Source: a virus. From it: a DNA stretch of 30,906 bases. The DNA lies in the IMG/VR virus record IMGVR_UViG_3300023116_000212, positions 1-30,906 of that record; one strand, written 5' to 3'. Position 1 is the stretch's first letter; each line of letters begins with the position of its first letter. Shown here piece after piece: positions 6,246 to 30,906 of the stretch. Below the pieces are notes generated by a model. It was not told where the DNA came from, did not search any database, and saw only the letters and a list, made by a program, of their open reading frames with translations. Position numbers and translations under genes: made by a program.

Positions 6246-7148
6246 TTAAATAAACCCTGATAATGCTGTTCCTGCTCCTACTACTTGACCGAATGGGGAG
6301 GTCCCTCCTATGACTTGGCCTAGCATACCAGAACGTTCTTCTCCGTAAGATCGTATCGGTTGTCCTGCAAGTAATCCAGTTAAGAACTGAAGTTGTCCTC
6401 TTTCGAATCCTTGTTGTTCTACGAAGTCACGGTAATCTTCTAGTAACTGTTGCTGTTGAACTGCTTGTTGTAAACCTCCGAACTGAGTTCCTGCGGCAGC
6501 TTCTTGAAGAGCAATTTGACCAGCTTGTGCTTGTAATGCAGGAATCGCTTGCGCTGCAGTTATTTGCCCTTGAGCGGCAGCTGCACGATCAGCTGCAAAT
6601 CTTTGTGCAGCTTCAGAAAATGCTTGTGATTGTAATTGAGCGGTTAAATCACCAGCTCGTTTTGCTGTTTCAGCTTGAAGCACTGCTTCTTGTACTCCCT
6701 GTCTTGCTCCACCATAAGCACCAGATTGAACTGCTTGTGCTCTTTGTTGCTGTGAAGCTAATGCTGATTGTTCTTGTAAATTTCTTATAGCGGCATTCGT
6801 AACTTGCTGAGTAAAAGGATTCATATACTGCTGTGCTAATTCAGGACTAAATTGTGTAGCTGCAATATTAGCGGCAGTTTCAACTCTTTGCTGTGCGGCT
6901 GGTACAACGCCAGATGCTCCGTATTGACCTAAAGTAGATTGTGCTTGAGTAATGGCAGCATTTTGCAGTTGTGATAAAGGAGCAATTCTTTCACCCTCGT
7001 AAGGTGTAAAGCCAGCTTGACTGGCTGCATTCGCTCTTGTAACTAAACTTTCCTGTACGTCTTTAAAGTACTGTGGAATTTCATATGTAACTTGCGATTC
7101 GCTTGGTGCCTGTACTACAGTTGTTGTTGGTTTAAATAAACTTCCCAT
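6246..7148 (-). CDS. Gln/Ala-rich coiled-coil virion protein, probable ejection protein
   Basis: A 300-residue protein with an extremely Ala/Gln-rich, helical middle (about residues 60-235), for example LQAQAGQIALQEAAAG and VQQQQLLEDYRDFVEQQGF. A Gly-rich, mildly hydrophobic C-terminus follows (GQVIGGTSPFGQVVGAGTAL). Proteins of this composition lie next to the largest internal virion proteins in many marine podovirus-like genomes. By analogy with P22 gp7 and T7 gp14 they are candidate ejection or core proteins. The assignment rests on composition and position. The ATG overlaps the acetyltransferase stop by one base. Confidence 0.5.
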   Translation of the reverse strand: MGSLFKPTTTVVQAPSESQVTYEIPQYFKDVQESLVTRANAASQAGFTPYEGERIAPLSQLQNAAITQAQSTLGQYGASGVVPAAQQRVETAANIAATQFSPELAQQYMNPFTQQVTNAAIRNLQEQSALASQQQRAQAVQSGAYGGARQGVQEAVLQAETAKRAGDLTAQLQSQAFSEAAQRFAADRAAAAQGQITAAQAIPALQAQAGQIALQEAAAGTQFGGLQQAVQQQQLLEDYRDFVEQQGFERGQLQFLTGLLAGQPIRSYGEERSGMLGQVIGGTSPFGQVVGAGTALSGFI

Positions 7149-7591
7149 TATAAATTATCTCCATACGTTCCACCAAGATACTCAAAATTCTGTCTCATTA
7201 ACCATTGATGTTTTCTATCAATATCGTGACCTTGAGTCATTTCTAATATCAAAGGCATCTTTGTTATTTTAGCGTATTCCTTAACATATTCTAGCAATTT
7301 TTTTGCTATTCTACTATTCCTTTTTTTATTATCTACATAAAGCCAATTCACTCGATAGAACTTTTTATCTGTGTACCACATATCTCCTAAAACTAGAGAT
7401 ATCGTTCCTATTATCTTTCCCTCTTTTTCAGCCACGATAACGAAATGATTATAGATAATATCGTGAATATAAGCATCTCCCTTTCCTGTATTAGGTTTTC
7501 CTAAGTTTAAAGGCGATTCTTTAAGCCAATTTAGAAGTAAATTTCTAATCGGTCTAACATCGTCTAAAGTCGCTTTGCGATAATTAATCAA
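7148..7591 (-). CDS. GNAT-family N-acetyltransferase
   Basis: A 147-residue single-domain GNAT protein, expected to move an acetyl group from acetyl-CoA to an amine. The N-terminus INYRKATLDDVRPIRNLL is the usual first strand-helix of the fold. A central strand (IIGTISLVLGD) follows, then motif A, VNWLYVDNKKRNSRIAKKLLEY (about 81-102). The usual R/Q-x-x-G-x-G/A acetyl-CoA loop is replaced by R-N-S-R-I-A, so one glycine is missing. The start is TTG with AAAGGA a few bases upstream; the next Met is at residue 71, too late for the fold. It lies among tail genes. The substrate is unknown: virion protein, host protein or sugar amine are all possible. Confidence 0.8.
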   Translation of the reverse strand: MINYRKATLDDVRPIRNLLLNWLKESPLNLGKPNTGKGDAYIHDIIYNHFVIVAEKEGKIIGTISLVLGDMWYTDKKFYRVNWLYVDNKKRNSRIAKKLLEYVKEYAKITKMPLILEMTQGHDIDRKHQWLMRQNFEYLGGTYGDNL

Positions 7592-7835
7592 GTAATCCTT
7601 TCGATTTTAGAGTATCTATTAGCGTTGCGACAACGTTAGCGACATCTCCTAAAGTCGCTGTTGTAGGGTCAATCGTTTTAGTTGTAGTAACATTGCTAGT
7701 AGAAAAGCCTGTACCAGCAGGCTGAGTAATCTCTAATAAATACTGTTCTAAATCAGTAACTGCTCGATTGTAGATTTCGTTTATATCATCTTTATTTCGA
7801 CTTAAAGGAATCGTAGGAGGTCTTTTAAAAGTCAT
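7584..7835 (-). CDS. Small hypothetical tail-region protein
   Basis: An 83-residue protein with a Pro-rich start (KRPPTIPLSRN), an amphipathic helix (residues 17-37), a Thr-rich linker (about 46-60) and a C-terminal helix (LGDVANVVATLIDTLKSKGLL). The layout looks like a small tail or neck accessory subunit that oligomerises through helices, but no family is recognised. It shares its first base with the stop of the upstream gene and overlaps the acetyltransferase by eight bases. Confidence 0.6.
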   Translation of the reverse strand: MTFKRPPTIPLSRNKDDINEIYNRAVTDLEQYLLEITQPAGTGFSTSNVTTTKTIDPTTATLGDVANVVATLIDTLKSKGLLD

Positions 7836-9691
7836 TATCTTCTACCATCGGGTCGAGCATCAACACGTAAAGTTCCGAATCTCCACTGGTCATCTACACT
7901 TGAATCGCTAAGTATTTTAACAGCTATTTGTCTCCCTCTCGATCTTGTATTAACTTCTCTCGTGCTTGAAGTAATATCTATTTCTCCTGATTCCGTTTGA
8001 GTATCAGCAGGAAACTCTCTTGATAATAAGTTCATCTTTACAGTTCCTTGTAAATTTTTAAAGTCAGGAATATATCCTCGAATAAACATGAATTGATCTC
8101 CGTCTGCAATATCTACATCTCCACTAGTAATATATGATTCCATAATTTCACCATTTTTAGTAGTACCAGTTTCTTGTTCATAAATAAAGCTACGACCTGC
8201 TGATACTCCATTCAATGTTTGAGTTGTAGCGGCAGTAGAATTAGCATAGTATTCCGTAGCATGAGGAACGGAGAAAACGCCTTGATCGATCCAAGTACTA
8301 CGATTCATTGTTCCAATATACCATACATTTTCTTGATAATTATAAATTACATATCGATCTACTTGACTTGAATTAGCTGAAGCGTAAAACCAGATAACTT
8401 CATTGAATCCGTTATTCTCACCCGCATAAACTTGAGGATTTTGAGTAGTATTAATATCATTAAATACATACGTTTTCACACTACAAGGAAGTTCTTGTAT
8501 CGCACCTCGATAAACCATAAATCGACCTTCCGACATCCAATAAGCTGTATCATTAACTACAACAGCTGAGTTTAGTCCTACAGCTCCACAATCAGTTCCT
8601 AGTAGTCGAAAGCCGAAAGTAAAAGGAGGACCGATAAACTGCATACTGTGAAGTCCTTGATCTGTCCATACTAATATCTCATTTCGAGTTTTCTTTGCAG
8701 TTATAATTCTACTACCTTGACCTAGTCTTTGAGAACCTGCAGTATTGGTTGAGTTAGCAGTCCATTCAGTAAAGTTTTCTTGATCAGACCATCGAATAAA
8801 CATATCGTCTTGAGAAGCTGTATTTCCAATACTTGTTTCTGTTCCTATACAAATTAAATGTCGATCAGGTGTAGAAACTAACCCTGTAGTAGAAGAAGTA
8901 GGAGCGTTTGCGACCGCAGTCATTCGAGTATCTACTCCTGCGGAAGTATCCCACACATAAGTTCCACCATCTTTTTTCCAAGCATATAAATCTTCACCAG
9001 CGTTATCGAAAGACCACATTCCCATATTAAGCACAACGTTAGATGTCGCTCTAGCAGTTCCCCATGTAGAAGCACTCCATGTTCCTGTTCCCCAACCATA
9101 TCCTAAAGTTTGAACATCGGGTTCTACTGATATTTCAAAATCAGCATCACCATCTCCTGTAGATGTAATACCAGCGTTTGCTTCATTAGAGGGCATTTCA
9201 ATATAAAAAGCACTAGAGTTAGCTATACCTTGTATTTCAAATTCACCTGTTTCAAAGTCAGATGCCACGAAAGAAGTCCCTGTAGTAAGATTAGTTATGT
9301 TACTAAAGATAGCAAAATCACCTGTAGAGGCTCCATGATTATTTATTTCTACAGTAACATTTGAACTACCAATTGTAGTCGTAAACATATTAGTTAATGA
9401 AGTATTAGATTGACGAATTGGGGTAACATCGCTTAGATTTCCACCCGTATAAATATAAACTTTTTTATTAGTTCCAAGTCCAATATATCGAGTACCTGCT
9501 AAATCGAACCAAGCTTTAATTCCTCTTACTGCTCCTACCATCGCTGAACTTGCAACACGAAGCCAACCACCTATTTTTTGAGGAAGTCCAAAGCGAAAAC
9601 GTACTTTATCACAATCAACCCATGCGCCTTCTGCGCCATATTCAGTGTTTTCTTTATCGATACCTGGACGGAATTGTACTTTATTAAGCAT
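7835..9691 (-). CDS. Tail hub protein, P22 gp10 / nozzle-like
   Basis: A 618-residue beta-rich protein with repeated blocks ending in aromatic residues, as in beta-propellers (IKAWFDL, RYIGLGTN, NEILVWTDQGLHSM, AYWMSEGRFMVYRG, NVWYIGTMNRSTW). The N-terminal FRPGIDKENTEYGAEGAWVD and the GGW a little further on are a signature I associate with packaged-DNA stabilisation and nozzle-type proteins of podoviruses, which close the tail tube below the adaptor ring. Length and location, after the adaptors and fibres and before the ejection proteins, fit. The gp10-like function is inferred. The ATG has no ribosome binding site; instead a TATAGT element and a 14-base palindrome lie in the gap upstream. 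Confidence 0.65.
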   Translation of the reverse strand: MLNKVQFRPGIDKENTEYGAEGAWVDCDKVRFRFGLPQKIGGWLRVASSAMVGAVRGIKAWFDLAGTRYIGLGTNKKVYIYTGGNLSDVTPIRQSNTSLTNMFTTTIGSSNVTVEINNHGASTGDFAIFSNITNLTTGTSFVASDFETGEFEIQGIANSSAFYIEMPSNEANAGITSTGDGDADFEISVEPDVQTLGYGWGTGTWSASTWGTARATSNVVLNMGMWSFDNAGEDLYAWKKDGGTYVWDTSAGVDTRMTAVANAPTSSTTGLVSTPDRHLICIGTETSIGNTASQDDMFIRWSDQENFTEWTANSTNTAGSQRLGQGSRIITAKKTRNEILVWTDQGLHSMQFIGPPFTFGFRLLGTDCGAVGLNSAVVVNDTAYWMSEGRFMVYRGAIQELPCSVKTYVFNDINTTQNPQVYAGENNGFNEVIWFYASANSSQVDRYVIYNYQENVWYIGTMNRSTWIDQGVFSVPHATEYYANSTAATTQTLNGVSAGRSFIYEQETGTTKNGEIMESYITSGDVDIADGDQFMFIRGYIPDFKNLQGTVKMNLLSREFPADTQTESGEIDITSSTREVNTRSRGRQIAVKILSDSSVDDQWRFGTLRVDARPDGRR

Positions 9692-9696
9692 AAACG

Positions 9697-9710
9697 ATAC
9701 TATATAGTAT
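9697..9710 (-). promoter_or_regulatory. 14-bp palindrome containing a TATAGT -10-like box
   Basis: The gap 9692-9727 holds the perfect palindrome ATACTATATAGTAT. On the minus strand the TATAGT (9699-9704) lies seven bases before the ATG of the tail hub gene, which has no Shine-Dalgarno sequence. A good -35 box is not visible (best TTTAAT at 17 bases). It may be a promoter, an operator, or both. Confidence 0.45.
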
Positions 9711-9727
9711 GTTTTATTGCTATTAAA

Positions 9728-10276
9728 CTATATTTTTAAATCTATATTGCAAGTTAAGGATAATTTTGGAGCGTTAATTTCTACTACTTGATGATCAATA
9801 AGTTGATTAAACCATAGTAAATCTTGATTTTCTAGTATTCGTTCCTTATTATCTATAATCCACTTAGATTTTCCGTAGATATTTTTTACTATAACAGAAT
9901 AAGGATGATTGTGTTTTTCAAACGATATTGATTTTTTTCCATTGCCGAAATAGAAATTCATATTTATAGTTGTTTTAAAATGATTATTTAGTAATTGTTG
10001 AATAACCCAAGTATCTTTATTAAATCCTCCAATATTAGAAAGAATTAAAGTGTAACCTTCTTCATAAGATTTTATACATTCTTCTGAATTTAAATATCCA
10101 TCTTCATTAAAAAAGTTTTGATGTTTTGTGCCATCTTCTAATATAGCTTCTATACTAGGTTGATTCCATGAATATGTTTTTGGCCATCGAAATCTATCTA
10201 AAAGTCTATCTAAAATATCTTTTTCAGTTAGATTTACTTGTTTATTTTTTAATATATTTAATAGTTTTTCTTCCAT
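9728..10276 (-). CDS. JmjC/cupin-like oxygenase-fold protein (HxH variant)
   Basis: A 182-residue protein whose C-terminal half has the layout of a JmjC/cupin-type hydroxylase: H122-N-H124 followed by PYSVIVKNIYGKSKWII. In known hydroxylases the matching pattern is H-x-D..V...GxKxW. A likely distal ligand is H162 in DHQVVEINAPKLSL. The first acidic ligand is replaced by His, so iron would be held by three histidines, or activity is lost. The N-terminal half (1-100) is unassigned. It is the last gene of the five-gene oxygenase cassette, 11 bases after the previous stop, and is very AT-rich (9-11 G/C per 60 bases in two lines counted by hand). The similarity is subtle; a non-catalytic cupin is the main alternative. 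Confidence 0.5.
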   Translation of the reverse strand: MEEKLLNILKNKQVNLTEKDILDRLLDRFRWPKTYSWNQPSIEAILEDGTKHQNFFNEDGYLNSEECIKSYEEGYTLILSNIGGFNKDTWVIQQLLNNHFKTTINMNFYFGNGKKSISFEKHNHPYSVIVKNIYGKSKWIIDNKERILENQDLLWFNQLIDHQVVEINAPKLSLTCNIDLKI

Positions 10277-10287
10277 TTTAATTTCCT

Positions 10288-10806
10288 TTATACATAATTA
10301 AAATTTAAAATTATTCTTCTTTTTGTATCTGTACTAAATTTATTGCAGTGTAAAGTATTTCCATCAAAAATCAATAGTCTATTTGCTATAGCCTCAACTT
10401 CAATATTTTTTTCTAAAAAAGTTGAACCATTATTAGTGTTTAAATAGAATATAGCTGTTTTAAAACTCACTTTATCGCCATAAAAAGATTCATAGGGAGG
10501 GTAATCTGTATGCATGGCTGTAATAATTTCTTTATTTGGATTTAAAGTTAGATTGGCTCTTATCATGTGACATGATCGTATTCCTAAGACAGTTTTAAAA
10601 ATATCATAAACAAAATCAAAAGTTTCTGAATTAATTTTATTTGTATTATATATTGAATGAGTAAAAAAATACGAATCATCATCTGCATAAGTTACTGTTT
10701 CATCATTATAAAACCAAGCGAGTGGTGCATTAAAAAATAAATCATAAAGTTTACTATAATTATTTTCGTTTAATGCATTGTCTATGATTTTAAAGTTATT
10801 TTTCAT
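10288..10806 (-). CDS. 2-oxoglutarate/Fe(II) oxygenase (HxD)
   Basis: A 172-residue single-domain 2OG-Fe(II) oxygenase, which would couple 2-oxoglutarate decarboxylation to hydroxylation of an unknown substrate. The facial triad is visible: H99-T-D101 in AMHTDYPP, and H153 in FDGNTLHCNKF. R163 or R164 is the likely 2-oxoglutarate carboxylate anchor ten residues later, in TKRRIILNFNYV. The intervening FKTAIFYLNTNNGSTFL is the usual strand pair with G-x-T-x-F. The ATG overlaps the upstream stop by one base (TAATG), so it is translationally coupled within the oxygenase cassette. A full canonical motif set makes this one of the domains most likely to be active. Confidence 0.85.
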   Translation of the reverse strand: MKNNFKIIDNALNENNYSKLYDLFFNAPLAWFYNDETVTYADDDSYFFTHSIYNTNKINSETFDFVYDIFKTVLGIRSCHMIRANLTLNPNKEIITAMHTDYPPYESFYGDKVSFKTAIFYLNTNNGSTFLEKNIEVEAIANRLLIFDGNTLHCNKFSTDTKRRIILNFNYV

Positions 10807-11381
10807 TATCCATAATTAAAGCTACAAACAATTCTTTCTTCAGATAAATTTACTTCTCTATTAGAACCATGAGACATCCAACCAGGGAATAATAATAAAT
10901 CTCCCTGTTTTGGTATTACTTGAACTTTAGAAGCAGTGTGATTTCTAGTATCATCTAATCCATATAAATACATATAGGGATTAGGGTTATAAAGATACAA
11001 AGGATTACTTTTTTCATCTATTTTTAAAAAGAAAACCCCTGTAACTAATGAACCATGGGTATGTTCTTTAAGTACACTTCCTTTAGTTTGAATATTTACC
11101 CATGAATTAGAAAGTTTAGTTTCCCAATTCCTAGTCGATATATCAGTAGCATATTTTCTTATATCTAAAATTAAAGTATCTATAAAATTATTTCCAAAAA
11201 TATCTAAGATATTTTCATAATTATTATATGTAGACAAAGCTGTTCCTTCTTCTTTAAAAACATTTTTATACTCACTTAATTTATCTTTTGAATAATCAAT
11301 TAAATTACTACATTGATTATTATCTAAATAGGAAGAATAAGTTCTTACAAGGGTAGGAAATATTAAACTATCAGTGTTCAC
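10806..11381 (-). CDS. Putative 2OG-Fe(II) oxygenase (HxH variant)
   Basis: A 191-residue protein resembling the 2OG-FeII_Oxy_5 type: NSWVNIQTKGSVLKEHTHGS, then VTGVFFLK, then FPGWMSHGSNREVNLSEERI and VCSFNY. The likely ligands are H107 (or H109) in EHTHG and distal H171, with R183 as the 2-oxoglutarate anchor. Where HxD is expected there is H-T-H, as is common in this family. The first residue is a GTG at 11381 with no clear ribosome binding site; it overlaps the upstream gene by 11 bases, so expression probably depends on coupling. The N-terminal IFPTLVRTY is also typical of the family, which often begins with a phrase of this kind. The substrate is unknown. Confidence 0.75.
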   Translation of the reverse strand: MNTDSLIFPTLVRTYSSYLDNNQCSNLIDYSKDKLSEYKNVFKEEGTALSTYNNYENILDIFGNNFIDTLILDIRKYATDISTRNWETKLSNSWVNIQTKGSVLKEHTHGSLVTGVFFLKIDEKSNPLYLYNPNPYMYLYGLDDTRNHTASKVQVIPKQGDLLLFPGWMSHGSNREVNLSEERIVCSFNYG

Positions 11382-11970
11382 TAAAATTATACCACCCTGT
11401 TACAATGTATTTTTCTTTTGTTTGACTTACTATTCCTTTATGAACATGAGTCCATCCAGCAGGCCAAATAAGGGTTAACCCTTTTTTAGCTTCAGTTTTA
11501 ATATCTTGATAATAAAATTCAGTTCCACCGTCAGGCACATCATTTAAGTAGGTCATAAACACTAAATGTCTAGTCATTACTTCTGGATTTGATCCATCAT
11601 TTTCGCAGTGCCACTGTTTAAAACCACCTCCTATTGGATAATATTGAATATTATAATGTCTTGTTATATTAAAGGAATGTACTCTGTCAGCGTGTTCAAA
11701 CTTTTTTAAATATTTTTTTAAAACTTTATCATTATGATATCTGTACTCTGCTATAACTGTATCAAAATTTCCTGGACTAATATTTAAATCTAAACTTTGT
11801 TTTACGCTCTCATCTACTGCCCATCTTTGATTTTCTTCAGCACTTCCTACAACTCCTGGTTTTGTATATTTTTTACTATAATTAAAAAAATCTATTAGTT
11901 CATCACATAACTCTTTAGGTATATATTCTCCTATCATAAAACTACTATCTGAAAATTCTATCTTTGACAT
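11371..11970 (-). CDS. 2OG-Fe(II) oxygenase, prolyl-hydroxylase-like (HxE variant)
   Basis: A 199-residue oxygenase-fold protein. The core motifs are YPIGGGFKQWHCEND, with H121 and E123 in place of HxD, then RHLVFMTYLNDVPDGGTEF (the strand pair of prolyl-4-hydroxylase-like enzymes), then WPAGWTHVHKG with H175 or H177 as distal ligand. K187 (KEKYIVTGW) is the likely 2-oxoglutarate anchor. Glu instead of Asp occurs in some members of the superfamily and need not abolish iron binding. The ATG overlaps the stop of the upstream double-domain gene by one base. I infer a hydroxylase; its target could be a protein side chain or a small molecule. Confidence 0.85.
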   Translation of the reverse strand: MSKIEFSDSSFMIGEYIPKELCDELIDFFNYSKKYTKPGVVGSAEENQRWAVDESVKQSLDLNISPGNFDTVIAEYRYHNDKVLKKYLKKFEHADRVHSFNITRHYNIQYYPIGGGFKQWHCENDGSNPEVMTRHLVFMTYLNDVPDGGTEFYYQDIKTEAKKGLTLIWPAGWTHVHKGIVSQTKEKYIVTGWYNFSEH

Positions 11971-13100
11971 TATTTAAAGTAAGGTCCTACCATCCAAGTA
12001 ACTATTGTTCTTCTTATACCACTTGTCACTGGTTCTACACCATGCATTAAAAAAGAAGGAAAAACAATTACATCTCCAGGGTTTTGTCTAGGATAAACTT
12101 TATTATCACCATTCATTAAATAAAACTTTCCACCTTCAAAATCATTATTCAAAAAAACTAAGACAGTTAATTTCCTGCAATCGTGCAAGTCTTTAAAATT
12201 TTCTACAAAAGTATCTACATGAGTAGAGAAATGTCCACTTTTATCGTAACGCAAATATTCTGATTGATTACTATGAGTAATATTAAATTTCCAATTTTTA
12301 AAATTTTCTTGTAAACCGATCCCTGTTAAAGTTGCTCCTACTCCTTGATGATTATGTAAAATTATTTTTTTAGTATCTCTAATTGCAAGATTAATCTCTC
12401 CTTGTCCAATACTAGCAACTTGTTCTAAATCTTTATTACTTTCAAAGTTTTCAATCATTTTTTGACAAGCTATTTCTGAAAAAGCATTTTTTATTTCTCT
12501 ATAATTTTTATTAATATTTTCTTCTTTTCCATGATGAGCTAGTCTATCTCTTTTGTCATACTTGTATTCAGTGTAGGGTCCTTCTTGATCTACGTAATGT
12601 ATAAAAACTTGAACTTGCCAATTTCCTTCAGTGTATTTTTCTCTCCAATGATATAGTTCACATCCTTTATAGACAACTGCGTCACCAACATTCATATTAA
12701 TCTGGCGACAGTCTTTTTTATCTTTATCGTACCCTATAAAAATAGGCCAAGAATTTCCCTCAAAACCTAAATTTATAGTTGCACTTATTTCACAAGAAGG
12801 TCGATCTAAATGAATTTTTAATTCATCACCAGGAGCGTACCATCTTGCATAGGCGTAAGTAGGAAAAAGTTTTTTCCCTGTTGCAGCTTCCATGTTAGGA
12901 GTTAGTTGTTCTAATAAAGAATCGAATAAAGAACATTGTCCAATCGACCAAGAAAGAGGACATTGAGGATCTTTTGTGCAAAGACCTTGATCTATTAATT
13001 TTTTAAACTCTGATACGTATTGATTACAATTTTCTTTATCTAAAAAATTTGGAAGATATATGTATTTTTTTTGTTCGAATTCTAATTGTTTAGAAATCAT
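11970..13100 (-). CDS. Double-domain 2OG-Fe(II) oxygenase
   Basis: A 376-residue protein made of two oxygenase domains. The N-terminal domain (about 1-180) has H97-L-D99 in KIHLDRPSCE and distal H151 in GCELYHWREKY. The C-terminal domain (about 195-376) has H294-V-D296 in HFSTHVDTF, the strands LTVLVFLN and FEGGKFYL, PGDVIVFPSFLMHGVEP with distal H353, and R363 as 2-oxoglutarate anchor. Both triads look complete; the first domain lacks an obvious Arg/Lys anchor ten residues after H151. This is the first gene of the oxygenase cassette. Its ATG follows AAAGGAA by five bases, and that ribosome binding site lies in the arm of a hairpin. A fusion of two different hydroxylases, or one active plus one scaffolding domain, are both possible. 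Confidence 0.9.
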   Translation of the reverse strand: MISKQLEFEQKKYIYLPNFLDKENCNQYVSEFKKLIDQGLCTKDPQCPLSWSIGQCSLFDSLLEQLTPNMEAATGKKLFPTYAYARWYAPGDELKIHLDRPSCEISATINLGFEGNSWPIFIGYDKDKKDCRQINMNVGDAVVYKGCELYHWREKYTEGNWQVQVFIHYVDQEGPYTEYKYDKRDRLAHHGKEENINKNYREIKNAFSEIACQKMIENFESNKDLEQVASIGQGEINLAIRDTKKIILHNHQGVGATLTGIGLQENFKNWKFNITHSNQSEYLRYDKSGHFSTHVDTFVENFKDLHDCRKLTVLVFLNNDFEGGKFYLMNGDNKVYPRQNPGDVIVFPSFLMHGVEPVTSGIRRTIVTWMVGPYFK

Positions 13101-13105
13101 TAATA

Positions 13106-13123
13106 TTCCTTTCTAAAAAGGAA
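13106..13123 (-). promoter_or_regulatory. Hairpin covering the ribosome binding site of the oxygenase cassette
   Basis: On the minus strand TTCCTTT, a four-base loop TTAG and AAAGGAA form a perfect seven-pair stem. The 3' arm AAAGGAA is the Shine-Dalgarno sequence of the double-domain oxygenase gene, five bases before its ATG. Transcripts reading through from upstream could therefore hide their ribosome binding site. No U-run follows, so it is not a standard terminator. Confidence 0.55.
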
Positions 13124-13150
13124 AATATCGTATAATTAATATTTATTCAA
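13122..13150 (-). promoter_or_regulatory. Candidate promoter for the oxygenase cassette
   Basis: In the 57-base gap 13101-13157 the minus strand shows TTGAAT (13145-13150), a 17-base spacer and TATTTT (13122-13127). Each box matches four of six sigma-70 consensus bases. The expected start, about 13114-13117, falls in the loop of the adjacent hairpin. In DNA this AT-rich a chance match is possible. Confidence 0.35.
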
Positions 13151-13157
13151 TAATAAA

Positions 13158-13439
13158 CTAAGAAGGTTCTGTTGCGTTTAAAGAAGATATTAATTTAATA
13201 GTACTATCTGAAGTGTCATAATACCATTCATCAGCAACTACTGAATCGCTACAATCTACCCAAAAAAGAGGAGAAGCCACTTCGAAGGTAGCGTCTTTTA
13301 CTTCAGCAACTCTTTGTCCATTAGATACTTTTGAAAAAGTAGGGGTGTTTGTAACTATTCCGTCACTATCTGTTTCGCTAGTCCAACTAGAAATATATTC
13401 ACATGTTCCACCTGGATCAATTAATGCTTTTTTAGCCAT
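13158..13439 (-). CDS. Small hypothetical structural-region protein
   Basis: A 93-residue acidic, beta-type protein starting MAKKALIDPGG, with a conserved-looking core RVAEVKDATFEVASPLFWVD followed by C-x-D and V-x-D-E-W-Y-Y. I recall similar small proteins beside fibre genes in marine phages, without a known function. It lies directly after the glycine-rich fibre gene (one base shared) and before the oxygenase cassette. It could be a fibre chaperone, a tip subunit or a decoration protein; none is demonstrated. Confidence 0.65.
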   Translation of the reverse strand: MAKKALIDPGGTCEYISSWTSETDSDGIVTNTPTFSKVSNGQRVAEVKDATFEVASPLFWVDCSDSVVADEWYYDTSDSTIKLISSLNATEPS

Positions 13440-14779
13440 TAGTAATACTCCTCAACTATAACTAAACCTGGAGCACCGTTTCCACCATTACCAGCGTTTC
13501 CGCCACCCCCTCCGCCACCTTGTTGGTGTCCTTGACCAGGATTACCAGGACTTGCTGGTCCAAAAGATGTTCCCCCTGGGGTTCCACCAGCACCAAATCC
13601 CATTGTTCCTGTTGCGTCATTTCTAAATCTATAATATGAACCGGGGAAATTTAAATCTCCACCACTTCCACTTCCGTTACTACCAGGATTTCCACTGTCA
13701 TTAAATGAAGCGTTTCCACCGTTACCTCCACCTGTAGCAGATAAGAAAGAACCATAACTATTTGTTCCTGGACCAGCAGTCACTGATACAGGGCCAGGTA
13801 TACTAGCTTCTGGAATATACTCTGATGACCATCCTCCAGAACCACCATGACCTCCTTCACGAGAAAAGTTAGGCGTTAGCACAGCTTGACCACCATTACC
13901 ACCGCCTCCCCAAACTTGAACTTTAACAGCTTGAACATCGGCAGGTTTTGTCCATGTAGCAGGGTTTGTATAAACTCTTCTTATATAGTTTCCACCACCA
14001 CCAGCTTCACCGAACTCAATAGCAGTTCCACCAGAATTCATTTTTAAAACTTGATCAGCAGAACCGAGAGAAGTTAACCCTGTACCACCTTTACTTGAAG
14101 GCACAGTTGGAAGTTGATCAGCAGGTAAAGTTCCTGTAGAGATTGTAGAAGCGTTATTTAGAGTGACGTTTCCTGATAATCTACCATCAGCAAGTGTCCC
14201 TGCTGAAATAGTAGAAGCGTTGTTTAAAGTTACGTTAGCAGATAATCTACCATCATCTAAAGTTCCAGAAGAAACGTTAGCTGCACTAAGAGCAGAAAGA
14301 CCGGAACCGTTTCCTGTAATAGTTCCTAATACAGATAAAGTTCCTAAAGAATTTGCAAATAGATCGACCATACCTGTACCTGATTTATTGTACATAATAG
14401 TATGAGCACCTTGAGTAATAGCCACGCCGTTAGCTGCATGACCTGTTGGAGCAACTGTTAGTGAAAATGAACCGGAAGTATTATTATAAAAAACATATTC
14501 TTTTTCTACAGCAGGAACAAATACATAAATATTATCGGTTAAAGTGCCTGTAAATTCAAAAATTCTATTGCCAGCTTCGTTTGTAGTTTCTACGTTTGGA
14601 TCTCTATTAGCTGTAGTTAAAGTGACGTTAGCTGAACCAGCAACTGACTTAGAAATATAGCCTCCGATAGCTGCATCTACAACTTCTAAGTTTTCGTTTG
14701 TATTATTTCCCCAAACACCAGAATTGGCGCCTGCTTCCATTAATTCTAATTTTAATCTATCTGAATATGTACTTGCCAT
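13439..14779 (-). CDS. Tail fibre with glycine-rich C-terminal adhesin domain
   Basis: A 446-residue fibre or adhesin. Residues 1-45 (YSDRLKLELMEAGANSGVWG) are the attachment-type N-terminus found in many phage fibres. Residues 170-235 hold a 22-residue repeat (S-x-GTL-x-DGRLS-x-NVTLNNAST-I), two good copies and one degenerate. The phage-fibre motif SSKGGTGLTSLG and QVLKMNSGG follow. From about residue 263 a Gly-rich domain begins (YTNPATWTKPADVQAVKVQV, then WGGGGNGG). It ends in APGLVIVEEYY, the usual end of this domain, which in T-even adhesins forms polyglycine-II bundles that bind the receptor. Eight X-Pro-Gly sites (P328, 337, 365, 379, 401, 411, 414, 437) are notable beside an oxygenase cassette. 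The start has a TCTCCTT (AAGGAGA) site upstream. Confidence 0.88.
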   Translation of the reverse strand: MASTYSDRLKLELMEAGANSGVWGNNTNENLEVVDAAIGGYISKSVAGSANVTLTTANRDPNVETTNEAGNRIFEFTGTLTDNIYVFVPAVEKEYVFYNNTSGSFSLTVAPTGHAANGVAITQGAHTIMYNKSGTGMVDLFANSLGTLSVLGTITGNGSGLSALSAANVSSGTLDDGRLSANVTLNNASTISAGTLADGRLSGNVTLNNASTISTGTLPADQLPTVPSSKGGTGLTSLGSADQVLKMNSGGTAIEFGEAGGGGNYIRRVYTNPATWTKPADVQAVKVQVWGGGGNGGQAVLTPNFSREGGHGGSGGWSSEYIPEASIPGPVSVTAGPGTNSYGSFLSATGGGNGGNASFNDSGNPGSNGSGSGGDLNFPGSYYRFRNDATGTMGFGAGGTPGGTSFGPASPGNPGQGHQQGGGGGGGNAGNGGNGAPGLVIVEEYY

Positions 14780-14788
14780 TACTTCTCC

Positions 14789-16372
14789 TTATGCAGCAAT
14801 ATTACTCCACGTGTTTGTAGAGGTTGTGTTAACAGGTTGCCATAGTTTAACATTGTCAAGTGAAATTATAGCAGAAAAACCTAAAATTGAAAGTATTTGT
14901 TGTGTACTTGGTGTAACATTTCCAAGTGTAGAAGTTGCTTCTAAACCTGTTATTACAACTCCTATTCCTTCTCCAACTACTACTGAATTTAGCGTTGTAG
15001 TGGCTTCTAAACCAGTTGGTGATAGTATTTGTTCACTAGTTATAGCAACACTAGCTAAACTTCCTGTTAATTCTTCGCCGGTTATTTCAATAAATGTAGC
15101 TAATCCTACATTAACGTTTCCTAAAGCTGTAGGTGCTTCAAAGCCTGTTTCAGCGTTTTCCGTAGCTGCATGAACTGAAAATAAACCTGAATCATTAGTA
15201 ATTGTAGTAGAACCGTTAGTTCCGTCAAAGTGAAGTAACGCTAAAGTGTATTGATCTACTCCAAAAGGTCCTGTAGGAGCAGTGAAACTCGCTGTATATC
15301 GAGCAACGTCAGATGCTCTAAATTCATCTATATAGCCAGCAAAAGGAGTACTACCATTTACTAGAGCACCGATACTATAAGATCTATTAGAATAACTTTC
15401 GTCATTAATAGTGCCCGAACCTTTTAAAGTTCCGTCTGTGAATATTTTAGCTTCAAGTCCATGTCGAACATATGCAACATGATGCCATGTATCATTACTT
15501 AAATCAGCATTGAACGGTGATGTAATAATGCCTCCGTCTTTTATTATAACCCATTTATTATTATTTAAATAAAAAGAAACTCCGTCTGTAGCCCCACCAT
15601 TATCCCATAGATATCCTATTTCTGTAGTTATCGCAGATCCACGAATCCACATTTCTACAGTGAAGTCTGTATTTCCTAAAGTTGAAGTTCCTGATGTTAC
15701 ATAATCACCTGTTCCGTCAAGTAATAAAGATGACCCTCCGAATTTACTTTGAGCTGTAGATATTTGAGCATCGCCTTGAGCTGTAAATGTAAGACCGCTT
15801 GTAGCGTATGTAGTTGTAGCTTGAAGTCCTGTTACAGATATTATCTGTTCACTTCCGATAGATACACTATTAAGTGTTAAATCAGCTTGCTGTCCTTCTT
15901 CAATTACAACAGCTCCACCTACGACAGTTTCATCTGAAAGAATACTTTCAGCTTCAAGACCAGTGACAGAGAATATAACTCCGACACCTTCAATAATTCC
16001 ACCTACGGGTTCTCCCCAACCGCCAGAGCCCCATTCATTGTAGCCCCAACCAAATCTCCAATTTATATCGCCAGTAGCAGATACACCAGTGACTTGAACT
16101 TCTCTTCCTTCACCAGCAATTACACTTCCTAAAGTAGAAGTAATTCCAAAACCAGTAACAGCTAAATTTTGACCAGCACCCGGTGTTACATTTCCAAGTG
16201 TAGAAGTTCCATTTACGCCAGTTGTTGAAGTGACAGCACTACCCTTGACAACTTCATCTCCTAATGAAGCGTTAAGGGATAGCCCTGTGATAACGGCGGC
16301 AGCATCGTTAGATGTTCCCCACGCACCGTCACCCCAGGCTTCTCTACTCCAACCAACCTGGGCTGTTGACAT
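14789..16372 (-). CDS. LamG-domain tail/adhesin protein with tandem repeats
   Basis: A 527-residue virion protein. About 22-residue repeats of the form VTGLEATSTLGNVTPGxGQ occur at roughly 28-96, 126-180 and 398-505. Between them lies a concanavalin/LamG-like sandwich at about 187-375 (FGGSSLLLDGTGDYV, DFTVEMWIR, WHHVAYVRHG, FAGYIDEFRASDVARYT, LLHFDG), a domain that commonly binds sugars. The N-terminus has WGDGAWGT, and WGYNEWGSGGWG recurs at about 100-110. The repeats probably form a beta stalk and the LamG domain probably acts as the receptor-binding head, an inference from domain type. It overlaps the upstream gene by one base and is followed nine bases later by the glycine-rich fibre. 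Confidence 0.82.
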   Translation of the reverse strand: MSTAQVGWSREAWGDGAWGTSNDAAAVITGLSLNASLGDEVVKGSAVTSTTGVNGTSTLGNVTPGAGQNLAVTGFGITSTLGSVIAGEGREVQVTGVSATGDINWRFGWGYNEWGSGGWGEPVGGIIEGVGVIFSVTGLEAESILSDETVVGGAVVIEEGQQADLTLNSVSIGSEQIISVTGLQATTTYATSGLTFTAQGDAQISTAQSKFGGSSLLLDGTGDYVTSGTSTLGNTDFTVEMWIRGSAITTEIGYLWDNGGATDGVSFYLNNNKWVIIKDGGIITSPFNADLSNDTWHHVAYVRHGLEAKIFTDGTLKGSGTINDESYSNRSYSIGALVNGSTPFAGYIDEFRASDVARYTASFTAPTGPFGVDQYTLALLHFDGTNGSTTITNDSGLFSVHAATENAETGFEAPTALGNVNVGLATFIEITGEELTGSLASVAITSEQILSPTGLEATTTLNSVVVGEGIGVVITGLEATSTLGNVTPSTQQILSILGFSAIISLDNVKLWQPVNTTSTNTWSNIAA

Positions 16373-16803: not shown

Positions 16804-17457
16804 TTATTGGCTACCCGTTAGGGTGTCCGTGCCAGCTACGCTAGCAGGGAATTTGTAATCAGTTCGTCTGCGCCTTCTTGATTGATTATTAAGACCCGCA
16901 ACGATCTCCTGATATCTCTTATCATACAACGGATAATCTACTTCATTTTTCGTAAAGATAGATGCTTCAGCTAAACAACCGTAAAGTAAAGCATCATCAG
17001 CATAAGTAGTTAACCAATTAGTTGTATTTGTATTTGAAAGATTTTGAATACGTGCAATATATTGCATTTCTACTGTATAAGATTGATCTGGTGTAGGCGC
17101 TAAAATACTAGTTTCATCATCAAAATTAGCAAAGTATTTTGGAAGTCCAGTTTGAGTTCCGTCTGGCCAGTATTCAGCGATAAATTCATCTGTTTTCATT
17201 TCTAGAAATATTTTATTATTTCCGTTAAACACGGCTAAATTCTTTATAATTAATAAATCACCTGGATTATTCATAAATTTATTATTTGAATCTAAGGTAG
17301 TAGTAACGTTAAAAGTAAACGCTTCAGGATCTATTTCTCTTAATAATCGTTGTTCTGTATTATTAATAAACGTATCTAACTGATTAGTGAAATCAGTTCC
17401 TGTATTTTGCATCCAAGTTTGGATATCTGTTCTTAGATCTGAATAAGTTGTTGCCAT
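16804..17457 (-). CDS. Head-tail adaptor-like protein (SU10/P22 gp4 type), second copy
   Basis: A 217-residue protein with an N-terminal helical pair (TYSDLRTDIQTWM, FTNQLDTFINNTEQRLLREI), a central beta insertion (about 50-140) and a C-terminal helix pair (YADDALLYGCLAEASIFTKN, YDKRYQEIVAGLN). The tail is basic and rich in arginine (SRRRRR). This is the layout of podovirus adaptor proteins, which bind the portal and extend the DNA channel. It resembles the gene at 18590-19273 in layout, so two adaptor rings or an adaptor and a nozzle-side paralogue are likely. Which one touches the portal cannot be told from sequence. The ATG overlaps the glycosyltransferase stop by one base. Confidence 0.7.
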   Translation of the reverse strand: MATTYSDLRTDIQTWMQNTGTDFTNQLDTFINNTEQRLLREIDPEAFTFNVTTTLDSNNKFMNNPGDLLIIKNLAVFNGNNKIFLEMKTDEFIAEYWPDGTQTGLPKYFANFDDETSILAPTPDQSYTVEMQYIARIQNLSNTNTTNWLTTYADDALLYGCLAEASIFTKNEVDYPLYDKRYQEIVAGLNNQSRRRRRTDYKFPASVAGTDTLTGSQ

Positions 17458-18248
17458 TATGTTGCTATACTATCTTTTTTTGCAAATTTATGCGATACAT
17501 TTCCTCTAAATCCATAAGTTCCGAAATGAGTTAAAGGACTGGCTATTTCAGCGTATATTTTTCCACCTATTTGTTGCCATCTACGGCAGAATGTATAATC
17601 TTCACTTAAATATCTATTGCTATCTGGATCAATAATACAATCGAAAAAGGAATAACACCAATCGCTAGAGTATCGTTGATTATTAATAATCTGATCTGAA
17701 GTGTATTTTAAATCAGGGAAAGCTTCTCTCATTTTTACAAATACTTCTTTTTTAATTAACATAAAACCTGTAGCTGCATCTAGTACTTCTACAAATCCAT
17801 TTTCTACTTTAATATTCATAGGATCCGCAAAGTTCATATTATAACCTAATAACTTCTGTTCTAATCCCTCCGTATCTCCTTGTTTTAGATAATATTCAAG
17901 ATTCTGCCATTCAATCGCTTTTCTAGGATAGATAGCAGTAACGATATCTTTATCATACTCTATTAGTTTAGTAACTAATTGAGGCTGAAAAGCTATATCT
18001 GAATCTATAAATAATAAATGAGTACAGTGTTCTGTATCCATAAACTGAGAAACAATAGTATTACGTGCTCTTGTAATTAAGCTTTCATTTCCCATAGTAT
18101 TTAAATGAATCTTATAACCTTTCTCTCTTGCTTCTTGTAATAATTTAACTACACTATGAAAGTATGCTTCATGCATAAGTCCACCGTAACATGGTGTTCC
18201 GATCATAACGTATGTTTCGTTTAAATTAACTGATGACGATTGAGACAT
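17457..18248 (-). CDS. GT-A fold glycosyltransferase
   Basis: A 263-residue family-2-like glycosyltransferase that would use a nucleotide sugar to glycosylate an unknown acceptor. The opening strand is YVMIGTPCYGG; the metal-binding DxD is D82-S-D84 in THLLFIDSDIAF. AATGFMLIKKEVF (about 158-170) is the usual acceptor-side strand and helix. S-E216-D217 in YLSEDYTFCRRW supplies the likely base region, and H241 in LTHFGTYGF is a likely third metal ligand. All GT-A landmarks are present, so it looks active. No signal peptide or membrane segment is seen, so it acts in the cytoplasm. It sits between connector genes, with 23 bases of overlap upstream, pointing to a virion-protein acceptor or to a moron that modifies host glycans. 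Confidence 0.85.
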   Translation of the reverse strand: MSQSSSVNLNETYVMIGTPCYGGLMHEAYFHSVVKLLQEAREKGYKIHLNTMGNESLITRARNTIVSQFMDTEHCTHLLFIDSDIAFQPQLVTKLIEYDKDIVTAIYPRKAIEWQNLEYYLKQGDTEGLEQKLLGYNMNFADPMNIKVENGFVEVLDAATGFMLIKKEVFVKMREAFPDLKYTSDQIINNQRYSSDWCYSFFDCIIDPDSNRYLSEDYTFCRRWQQIGGKIYAEIASPLTHFGTYGFRGNVSHKFAKKDSIAT

Positions 18249-20590: not shown

Positions 20591-21499
20591 TTAGGCTGCG
20601 CCTGTAGTACCGAAGATACCTCTCCAATCGGTGAAACCGAATGAATATCTCTCAGATACTTTATAGCGTAAGTTCCCTGTCTCAAAATCACCTTCAACAG
20701 CTTTTTTAAGTGAGCGTCTTACGAAGTGCGTCATACCATCTGGCACGTCAGTCATCATAAAGAACGCATCCGGGTCAGTTAGACGCTGGTTAACTGCTAC
20801 GCCACCAGGGATCATACCCATAGATTTCATAGCGTTAATATCATTGTCAGCTGTACCTGGTCTTAGGTTACTGTTAACGATTCTTTCAGCAACGAACATT
20901 AACTCTGGTGGAACGATCAACTTCTGACCTGTTGCTGCAACCGGAATACCTCTATCGTCTGTCATTTCAGAAATCTGAATTAACATTGTCTCAAGAGATG
21001 TTTCGGATAAGTCAGCTGCAGTTCCTAGAATGTTGGATGCAGTTCCGCCACCGCCTAATGGGTGAGAAGCACTAAGCATAGCAACTCCGTCACCACCTGT
21101 TACTGTTGTAAAGCCATTGTTTAAGATATTAGCACCTTTGATTTCTTTTGTGTGCTGCATTGATCTAGCTAAAGCTCTAGCGTATTTTGCACCAAGAGAA
21201 CCGTAAAGACCATCTTCTTCAGCTTCCTCAGTAATTGAGAATGCTAATGCGATTGTCTCGTGGGTATATCTTGCTACAATACCTTCTCTTCCTGATTCGT
21301 AAGAGATGGCTGCGCCTTCTGCTTTAGTAGGAGCTGCACCAAAACCAATCATCTGTACATCTTCTTCAAAAGCTTTTTGTGATTGCTCAACGGAGAATAT
21401 TTCTCTCCACTGTTCTGGGTAACGGTCGTATTCCATACCAAAAATAGTGTTGAGACCTAAGTTAAGCTGTTTTGTAAATAAAGATCTATTTAATGCCAT
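20591..21499 (-). CDS. Major capsid protein
   Basis: A 302-residue coat protein, presumed HK97 fold. Landmarks: an N-terminal arm (MALNRSLFTKQLNLGLNTIF), EYDRYPEQWREIFSVEQSQK, AISYESGREGIVARYTHETI (extended loop region), a long helix EDGLYGSLGAKYARALARSM, SASHPLGGGGTASN, PVAATGQKLIVPPELMFVAE, and C-terminal LRYKVSERYSFGFTDWRGIF. The S-x-HPL-x-GG and the P-x-L-x-x-x-AE-x-I patterns are hallmarks of phage coat proteins. It lies after scaffold and decoration-type genes and before a terminator, as expected. The GC content is higher here than in the oxygenase cassette, as is usual for a highly expressed gene. Confidence 0.9.
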   Translation of the reverse strand: MALNRSLFTKQLNLGLNTIFGMEYDRYPEQWREIFSVEQSQKAFEEDVQMIGFGAAPTKAEGAAISYESGREGIVARYTHETIALAFSITEEAEEDGLYGSLGAKYARALARSMQHTKEIKGANILNNGFTTVTGGDGVAMLSASHPLGGGGTASNILGTAADLSETSLETMLIQISEMTDDRGIPVAATGQKLIVPPELMFVAERIVNSNLRPGTADNDINAMKSMGMIPGGVAVNQRLTDPDAFFMMTDVPDGMTHFVRRSLKKAVEGDFETGNLRYKVSERYSFGFTDWRGIFGTTGAA

Positions 21500-23534: not shown

Positions 23535-23912
23535 TTATACTTTAGTCGTTAAGATATCAGGGTCCGAAAGAACTGCTAATATCTCATCATCATTTAATAG
23601 AAGCATCTTAACGCCACCTACGTCAATCTTACTTCCTGCGTATCTACCATATACAACATAATCACCAATTTTGCACCATGGTTTTTTGCTTTTATCGTAA
23701 CATTCATCGCCCATAGCAAGAACTCTTCCTTTACTATTAAGATAAGCTTGATCTTCTACAGCTTTGTCAGTTAAGATAATTCCACCTTTAGTTTTTGTAA
23801 TCGGCGCTATTGGTCGAATGAGTATTCGAAATCCGCATGGGATTGGTAGTTCTTTTGGATCGGCAATATCACTATCAGTGTGCCAATCATTGTTCATGAC
23901 TATATTACTCAT
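23535..23912 (-). CDS. GroES/Cpn10-like co-chaperonin
   Basis: A 125-residue protein with the Cpn10 core from about residue 25: PCGFRILIRPIAPITKTKGG, IILTDKAVEDQAYLNSKGRV, LAMGDECYD, KIGDYVVYGRYAGSKIDVGG and MLLLNDDEILAVL. The TKTKGGIILTD loop corresponds to the GroES mobile loop (GGIVL), which contacts GroEL. A phage-encoded co-chaperonin between portal and scaffold genes probably helps the host GroEL fold the coat protein, as T4 gp31 does. An extra 24 residues at the N-terminus (NDWHTDSDIADPKELP) are not part of the usual domain. The ATG overlaps the upstream gene by eight bases. Confidence 0.88.
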   Translation of the reverse strand: MSNIVMNNDWHTDSDIADPKELPIPCGFRILIRPIAPITKTKGGIILTDKAVEDQAYLNSKGRVLAMGDECYDKSKKPWCKIGDYVVYGRYAGSKIDVGGVKMLLLNDDEILAVLSDPDILTTKV

Positions 23913-24108: not shown

Positions 24109-24271
24109 CTTTTACCGCCTTTCTAATAACATCTAACGTATCGTTAAAATTTTTATTTAATTGTTTTGCTGCAGTCGCAAATAGGTTAGGTTTTACGATT
24201 TGAGTTTTAATATTTTTATTTAAAAGAAATTTCTTAGCTTGTCTTATTTCTTCACCCGTAGGTCTGCTCAT
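24062..24271 (-). CDS. Small hypothetical protein after portal
   Basis: A 69-residue basic helical protein (MSRPTGEEIRQAKKFLLNKN, FNDTLDVIRKAVKDAE). The ATG overlaps the portal stop by four bases. No family is recognised. The last 15 residues are polar and basic and lie in the region shared with the next gene. Confidence 0.6.
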   Translation of the reverse strand: MSRPTGEEIRQAKKFLLNKNIKTQIVKPNLFATAAKQLNKNFNDTLDVIRKAVKDAETNGSNPRGNKKA

Positions 24272-29024: not shown

Positions 29025-29052
29025 ACTATAACGATATTTGTTTAACTGTAAA
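29025..29052 (-). promoter_or_regulatory. Sigma-70-like promoter after the terminase gene
   Basis: Minus strand TTTACA (29047-29052), a 16-base spacer and TATAGT (29025-29030); each box matches five of six consensus bases. The -35 lies in the last codons of terminase. The expected start is 29017-29020, that is at the ATG of the 77-residue gene. A CAAATA/TATTTG inverted repeat (29022-29042) overlaps the -10 region. Confidence 0.55.
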
Positions 29053-30565: not shown

Positions 30566-30906
30566 CATCGCCTGCGACCCATTTAGAATGATGCTCGACA
30601 CTATATTCAATAGTCGAAACTTTATAGTCAGGGAACATCATTTTTTTGGGAGACAAACTTTTATCGTAAAATATAACTCGGTTATTTGGTTGCGCCGCAT
30701 AGTGGCCGTTATCTAGTTCTAGAATATTAAACGACTTATGTTGGCTCGGGACTTCGGAATATCCGACATCAGGAATATTGGGATCAGGGTGAGCAGAATC
30801 TATCGTGAACAAATAAGTTCCGTAGTGCCAATTTTTACTTGGGGATAAATACTTGCAACGCCCTGTCCCGGGATTACATTTCTGGATTACAGCTACATGA
30901 TAACTA
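30522..30906 (-). CDS. Gene upstream of terminase, 5' end outside the window
   Basis: The frame is open from the window edge to the stop at 30522, giving at least 127 residues. The visible part includes QKCNPGTGRCKYLSPSKNWH, YGTYLFTIDSAHPDPNI, then EVPSQHKSFNILELDNGHYA and AQPNNRVIFYDKSL. A TTG at 30812 could be read as a start, but the frame continues upstream with sensible sequence, so it is internal. I recall very similar phrases (HKxxNxLxLDNGxFAAQPNNRV) from proteins encoded before terminase in marine phages; their function is unknown to me. It overlaps terminase in another frame. Confidence 0.75.
   Translation of the reverse strand, partial: SYHVAVIQKCNPGTGRCKYLSPSKNWHYGTYLFTIDSAHPDPNIPDVGYSEVPSQHKSFNILELDNGHYAAQPNNRVIFYDKSLSPKKMMFPDYKVSTIEYSVEHHSKWVAGDDESFFYELRDTTKS

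Follow-up and report, generated by a model that had tools for sequence, protein, structure and literature searches.

Oxygenase-fold genes exchanged together with the glycine-rich tip of a tail fibre in a relative of HTVC023P-type podoviruses

Why should a phage carry five consecutive genes with six oxygenase-fold domains next to its tail fibre? The question is raised by IMG/VR record IMGVR_UViG_3300023116_000212, a 30,906-nt tailed-phage fragment with its structural genes on the minus strand (all of it analysed, and called the window below). An initial annotation, made from the sequence, had described such a run inside the tail module and thought it unusual, translationally coupled, and suggestive of a multi-step modification. 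The five open reading frames (ORFs) are named here by their lower coordinate (Table 1), except for the first in transcription order, a two-domain dioxygenase called NC. The five genes are best seen as exchangeable cargo travelling with the tip of the tail fibre; NC, to judge from a structural model and from sequence comparisons that take in hundreds of related phages, quite probably matures this receptor-binding tip by proline hydroxylation, where we infer the catalysis, the proline target, and the effect.

The two proteins of least certain identity, NC and 9728, were modelled with AlphaFold2. The NC model has a mean predicted local distance difference test score (pLDDT) of 93, with a predicted template modelling score (pTM) of 0.55 that leaves the relative placing of its halves uncertain. 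The C-terminal half matches PF13640 (1.9e-15), and the N-terminal half matches phrog_2954 (7.6e-47). In structure comparison, the nearest folds to the modelled C domain are prolyl 4-hydroxylases (P4Hs): Z is 20.3 to the Pseudomonas enzyme (P. putida, 4iw3), 19 to PHD2, and 18.8 to the chlorovirus vCPH (5c5t); by sequence, PKHD-type PiuC is nearest, followed by P4H. The N domain is close to two 2-oxoglutarate (2OG) oxygenase folds, SnoN (Z 17.5) and 6n1f (Z 17.1). Across 44 homologues, H97-x-D99...H151 of the N domain and H294-x-D296...H353...R363 of the C domain are invariant. In other phages the two domains are separate neighbouring genes. Bacterial genomes and metagenome-assembled genomes (MAGs) also have single N-domain homologues (L285, L287, L289, L296, L303, and L327). 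In several cases a C-type oxygenase gene is adjacent, and the two domains may have been partners before they were fused in phages.

The 11371 protein matches PF13640 above the cut-off, and by profile its nearest relatives are prolyl hydroxylases (P4Hs at 3e-10, chlorovirus vCPH at 1.5e-9); an HxE...H...K motif is invariant in 16 homologues, with K187 as the basic 2OG anchor. The 10806 protein matches PF13759 above the cut-off and the solved proteins 3bvc (1e-26) and 2rg4 (8e-25) by profile, with HxH...H...R invariant in nine homologues (anchor R183) and thus HxH in place of HxD/E. For 10288 the double-stranded beta-helix (DSBH) assignment is the weakest of the six, coming from an HxD...H...R motif invariant in nine homologues (anchor R164), PF13640 hits for 3 of its 9 family members, and a weak similarity to the 11371 family at the profile level. 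The 9728 model (pLDDT 95) has a JmjC fold of NO66/MINA53 type, with Z 16.7 to NO66 over 171 residues at 2.5-2.8 A; a plain cupin was considered and rejected, the NO66-type fold fitting the whole length far better. All 20 of its homologues have HxH in place of HxD, and at the position of the JmjC 2OG lysine an ungapped alignment to MINA53 places Ser (17), Gly (2), or Cys (1). As 9728 has neither the 2OG lysine nor an acidic ligand for the iron, its dependence on 2OG is doubtful. A similar gene also occurs outside tail modules (in HTVC008M, S-SSM7, and L110), so that its substrate may be something other than the fibre.

The initial count of six oxygenase-fold domains in five genes is thus upheld, by the two models and by profile matches to solved proteins, with 10288 assigned by motif and weak profile; the fold check did not find two or more proteins without a DSBH, the outcome named at the outset as fatal to the claim. 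That all six are 2OG oxygenases is not established: the HxD/E...H iron triad is invariant in 10288, 11371, and both NC domains, but 9728 and 10806 have HxH...H, and 9728 lacks the JmjC 2OG lysine. The junctions likewise bear out part of the coupling claim. In transcription order, the gap from the upstream gene (13158/13100) is 57 nt, followed by overlaps of 1 nt (at 11970), 11 nt (11371-11381), and 1 nt (at 10806), then gaps of 11 nt (10276/10288) and 36 nt (9691/9728). For the first four genes, with their overlaps of 1-11 nt, translational coupling is plausible; for the last, behind its 11-nt gap, it is less so. GC content is 24-30% in the five genes vs. 36% for the window.

The run ends just before a gene called STAB here. 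Its product shares 39-44% identity with proteins of pelagiphage HTVC027P and phage DSL-LC04, which by this similarity makes the window phage kin to the HTVC023P-type podoviruses. The slot upstream of STAB was surveyed in 18 distinct related loci, found through STAB alone and regardless of oxygenases: it holds no oxygenase domain in 5 loci, two to six in 12, and eight in one. The closest relatives, with STAB 79-85% identical, are oxygenase-free; another close group (88-89%) has four domains, differently arranged. Given this range of zero to eight domains, and the AT-richness of the genes, the run is best described from these comparisons as variable cargo in a recurrent slot. Six domains are no record, and the notion that such a run is unusual has to be given up.

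What is exchanged appears to be larger than the run. In all five oxygenase-free relatives compared, DNA similarity to the window ends near 14336 (14317-14336), inside the fibre gene, and returns at 9682-9691, at the start of STAB. The block replaced contains the fibre tip, p93 (a small protein of about 90 residues), and all five oxygenase genes, and on this alignment evidence is exchanged as one unit. The tail-module location given by the initial annotation is right; that tip and oxygenases share the block had been missed. About the first 160 residues of the fibre are common to the relatives, while the tip is not: theirs is different (a histidine-rich collar type) and accompanied by none of the five genes, while that of the window is glycine-rich and ends ...GAPGLVIVEEYY. 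The window fibre has tail-fibre PHROG matches and a glycine-rich C-terminal tip of the gp38/gp24 type, although the tip matches PF21722 only below the cut-off. Other small genes, with no assigned function, occupy the slot in relatives. In the close relatives L217-L224 (e.g., L218:6792-7664), a separate glycine-rich protein ending ...YRFMRIT immediately precedes STAB, and the stretch examined contains no oxygenase.

Scans with NC alignments extend this association to loci with different virion genes, most of which keep the order glycine-rich fibre, p93, NC. Of 36 distinct loci with fused NC, 26 have a glycine-rich ORF that ends 500 nt or less upstream of it, vs. 7 of 176 control ORFs, these being the other ORFs of the same loci (Fisher 5e-19). 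The cassette sits on unrelated, PHROG-distinct virion backbones, and is repeated in two bacterial-MAG contigs. In loci found by scans with two narrow p93 alignments, p93 directly follows a glycine-rich ORF wherever this could be determined (86 of 86), and NC is downstream in 43 of 72 (60%, an upper bound, as the p93 queries were drawn from NC-linked loci); p93 therefore appears to belong to the fibre, with NC an optional third member. We infer that p93 is a fibre chaperone; comparison with solved structures gave no sequence link to a known one. The full cassette was not found in cultured phages, and p93 turned up in one uncultivated genome only, there without NC. Four contigs binned as Maricaulis MAG IN14 (L332, L334, L335, and L338), which look like phage contigs, have as many as nine oxygenase genes in a row, and three of the four also encode a glycine-rich protein close by.

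Tips with and without the enzyme differ in composition, above all in proline. Glycine-rich tips with p93 average 6.5% Pro where N or NC follows (n=71) and 2.5% where neither does (n=22; p=6e-11). Proline ranks first of the 20 residues in this comparison, with no other close, and glycine is equal (31.5 vs. 31.6%). The enzyme label has been gained or lost at least 12 times on the p93 tree; correction for this tree leaves a proline effect of +4.2 points (p=4e-16 with the best lambda and 1e-9 with full Brownian motion), and 22 of 22 matched nearest pairs have more proline with the enzyme. Loci found through p93 alone give 6.2 vs. 2.3% (p=8e-9). As controls, the fibre shaft and p93 itself show the opposite tendency. 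NC contigs are lower in GC, and regression with GC retains the effect (t=10.6). A second, unrelated tip of collar type, accompanied by split C and N genes, has 5.2% Pro with N and 1.4% without (p=7e-6, a statistic that ignores kinship, in which the 13 proteins without enzyme form one narrow clade); in the N-terminal 130 residues of these proteins the values are 2.2 and 2.2%. In genome L141, Pro makes up 9.4% of the fibre next to NC and 5.0% of a second fibre. In the cultured HTVC023P, the last 130 residues of the glycine-rich gp60-gp62, just upstream of the enzymes, have 13.8, 5.4, and 9.2%, and those of the glycine-rich gp70, elsewhere in the genome, 1.5%. The window tip itself has 14 prolines in 182 residues (7.7%), against 2.3% in the shaft.

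An X-Pro-Gly collagen signature is not claimed, P-G being no more frequent than base composition predicts. Whether extra oxygenases go with changes in further tip residues was also examined; Asn goes up and Ala down, which low GC by itself might produce, and this result was not used.

A prolyl-hydroxylase-like domain, linkage to the tip, and a proline enrichment limited to the tip together make NC best read as a tip-maturing prolyl hydroxylase. In the sequence of events envisaged, the fibre chain is made and p93 would attend its glycine-rich tip; the NC C domain would then hydroxylate some of the many prolines there with iron, oxygen, and 2-oxoglutarate, while the N domain might act as a partner, by a second oxidation or by holding the substrate, and the tips might become stiffer or bind in a different way. 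The remaining four enzymes probably work on this tail protein or its neighbours. For the NC C domain and for 11371, peptidyl-proline hydroxylation is an indirect deduction from the proline enrichment of linked tips. The data do not show the multi-step modification first suggested; the evidence favours one tip-linked prolyl hydroxylase with four accessory enzymes, gained and lost freely. A virion protein as substrate, also part of the first suggestion, gains comparative support for NC but not for the other four.

Several points weigh against this reading. In the N domain, no basic 2OG anchor was recognised where one is usually found after H151, and no single proline motif stands out in the tips beyond an excess of NP and PxP. 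There is no glycine-rich ORF within 1.5 kb of NC in 5 of the 36 fused-NC loci, and 26 of 72 p93-anchored fibres are without an oxygenase, so that the enzyme is not generally needed for such fibres. The origin of the p93 queries and the narrowness of the collar-type clade, noted above, tell in the same direction. More generally, the evidence from composition and linkage is correlative: an enzyme and a proline-rich tip could be inherited together without interacting.

The published view of such genes, in cyanophages (quoted in PMC4164917 and PMC9602691) and pelagiphages (PMC9599517), is a metabolic one: as auxiliary metabolic genes (AMGs) the oxygenases would shift the host 2-oxoglutarate pool or nitrogen metabolism, and the tail slot would be a convenient cargo site. 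The genes are accessory, AT-rich, and absent from close relatives, as this view would have it. However, it does not predict linkage to one type of fibre on unrelated backbones, exchange as a unit, or proline enrichment confined to the tip, and it is considered unlikely. Passive hitch-hiking, in which tip and oxygenases are swapped jointly by recombination in flanking core genes with no substrate relation between them, would account for the exchange of tip and cargo as a unit, tail genes being exchange hot spots, and for the other small genes that fill the same slot; but cassette order is kept on different backbones, and proline changes, in the tip only, with repeated gain and loss of the enzyme (the 22 pairs above), which leaves hitch-hiking rather improbable. 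Very improbable is action on small molecules or glycans, in surface decoration or on a secondary metabolite (cyanophage clusters of oxygenases and carbamoyltransferases have been read as capsule or metabolite modification, PMC7824862, and a glycosyltransferase-like gene is often in the sister-phage clusters), or in AlkB-like DNA repair (the reading given to Syn9 enzymes, PMC2984593), as the NC C domain by fold and 11371 by sequence are nearest to protein prolyl hydroxylases, 9728 is nearest to protein hydroxylases, and no gene for replication or repair could be recognised in the window.

Proline hydroxylation of the tip by NC may be part of something broader, to which about an even chance is given: several types of aquatic virion would bear hydroxyproline tips made by a tip-linked two-domain prolyl hydroxylase, with modifications added by further oxygenases and by the glycosyltransferase of sister phages, and tip chemistry would be a part of host recognition or stability. 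The window encodes a glycosyltransferase-like protein (17457-18248) with GT2 and Anp1 matches, both below the Pfam cut-off; in many sister phages (L081, L082, L090, and L124) its relatives lie inside the oxygenase cluster beside STAB, a placement that would fit hydroxylation followed by glycosylation.

Two of the families involved have misleading names. The PHROG label of phrog_2954 is "ferrochelatase," and the same N domain is annotated as "putative ferrochelatase" in HTVC023P gp67 and as "ferrochelatase" in P-RSM4 and S-T4; the NC N domain has no match to a ferrochelatase family of Pfam at E<=1, and its predicted fold is a DSBH near 2OG oxygenases. Similarly, phrog_274, to which 10288 belongs, is labelled "endonuclease V," with no such match in Pfam or NCBIfam and with the PF13640 matches described above. 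The labels "ferrochelatase" (phrog_2954, phrog_3531) and "DNA endonuclease V" (phrog_274) are very probably wrong for these families, and have spread into AMG studies. Two ecological studies (PMC9599517, PMC11561400) have treated these genes as partners of 2OG oxygenases, and the first adds a role in iron or haem; as their phage "ferrochelatase" is an oxygenase-fold domain in this phage and its relatives, claims of haem or iron partner genes need review.

Elsewhere in the window, tail genes lie downstream of the head gene, followed by ejection proteins and lysozyme. A GNAT acetyltransferase gene between the small p83 gene and an ejection-protein gene is kept in close relatives; in an unrelated phage (L176), another GNAT-family protein adjoins the tail-tip gene. 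A GroES-like co-chaperonin gene lies between the portal and head-protein genes. A 96-residue ORF overlapping the start of the terminase gene matches phrog_3704, "ferredoxin" (2e-37), but no Pfam family, and has longer relatives of 212-224 residues (L121, L266); the label calls for a check. A scan of 7500-15000 for promoters and terminators gave nothing above shuffled expectation.

Table 1. Positions in the window of the genes, domains, and exchange block discussed.
Feature	Position	Strand	Evidence
NC, two-domain dioxygenase, 376 aa	11970-13100	-	Pfam and PHROG matches, AlphaFold2
NC N-terminal DSBH domain, residues 1-188	12537-13100	-	fold and motif
NC C-terminal prolyl-hydroxylase-like DSBH domain, residues 196-376	11973-12515	-	fold and motif
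P4H-like 2OG-Fe(II) oxygenase, 199 aa	11371-11970	-	PF13640, profile, motif
PF13759-type oxygenase, 191 aa, GTG start	10806-11381	-	Pfam, profile, motif
Oxygenase-like protein, 172 aa, phrog_274	10288-10806	-	motif, weak profile
JmjC-fold protein, NO66/MINA53-like, 182 aa	9728-10276	-	AlphaFold2 fold
p93, small protein	13158-13439	-	linkage to upstream glycine-rich ORF
Tail fibre with glycine-rich tip	13439-14779	-	tail-fibre PHROG matches
Glycine-rich receptor-binding tip, fibre residues 265-446, proposed substrate	13442-13987	-	composition
Exchange block	9692-14335	-	DNA similarity to closest relatives
STAB	7835-9691	-	
Head protein	20591-21499	-	
Portal	24268-26586	-	
Terminase	29042-30610	-	
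GNAT acetyltransferase	7148-7591	-	
Glycosyltransferase-like protein	17457-18248	-	GT2 and Anp1 matches below cut-off
GroES-like co-chaperonin	23535-23912	-	
96-aa ORF	30522-30812	-	phrog_3704 match

Parts of this picture have precedents. Clusters of 2OG-oxygenase genes in marine phages, this slot included, are already known (PMC9599517, PMC9602691), as are glycine-rich tips with a chaperone (PMC9608196). Viral P4H genes have been described as abundant, with collagen in tail fibres mentioned and their use called "cryptic" (PMC9301287); for PBCV-1, hydroxyproline in viral proteins was reported by Eriksson 1999, as cited there. A literature search, with most subscription journals outside its reach, found no paper on hydroxylation of phage fibres, nor the tip linkage, the proline signal, or the relabelling proposed here; as far as could be found, proline modification in phage virions was apparently not known before. 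The role of 2OG-oxygenase genes in marine phages is openly called unknown, and they are usually filed as host-metabolism genes. If the modification is real, a layer would escape host-range predictions that use only the sequence of the fibre, and fibres produced in the absence of the enzyme might show misfolding or poor binding.

Among known systems, the HTVC023P-type pelagiphages (PMC9599517) and seasonal marine phages (PMC11561400) have the same families, phrog_61 and phrog_2954, in the same adjacency, and in HTVC023P the enzymes occupy the same slot as in the window. They were read in terms of host metabolism and iron or haem, whereas the present analysis shows phrog_2954 to have a DSBH fold and links the genes to a fibre tip. 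Cyanophage S-SCSM1 (PMC9602691) has 24 2OG-oxygenase genes of the same Pfam families, but these are dispersed through a large myovirus genome and were interpreted as reprogramming the host. The ribosomal oxygenases NO66 and MINA53 share their fold with 9728 over its whole length; at 182 residues, 9728 lacks their HxD, 2OG lysine, dimerisation part, and winged-helix part.

S16 gp38 and cyanophage Pam3 gp24 with its chaperone gp25 (PMC9608196) likewise combine a glycine-rich receptor-binding tip with a small partner gene beside it, but no oxygenase has been described in either, and p93 has no sequence link to a solved chaperone. For the enzyme, the counterpart is the collagen prolyl 4-hydroxylase of chlorovirus PBCV-1 (vCPH, 5c5t/5c5u), which is also virus-encoded, has the prolyl-hydroxylase fold, and has as its proposed substrate a Gly/Pro-rich viral protein. 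It differs in coming from a giant virus that infects algae, in having a single domain, and in its association with collagen repeats, where the window has two fused DSBH domains tied to the tip of a phage fibre.

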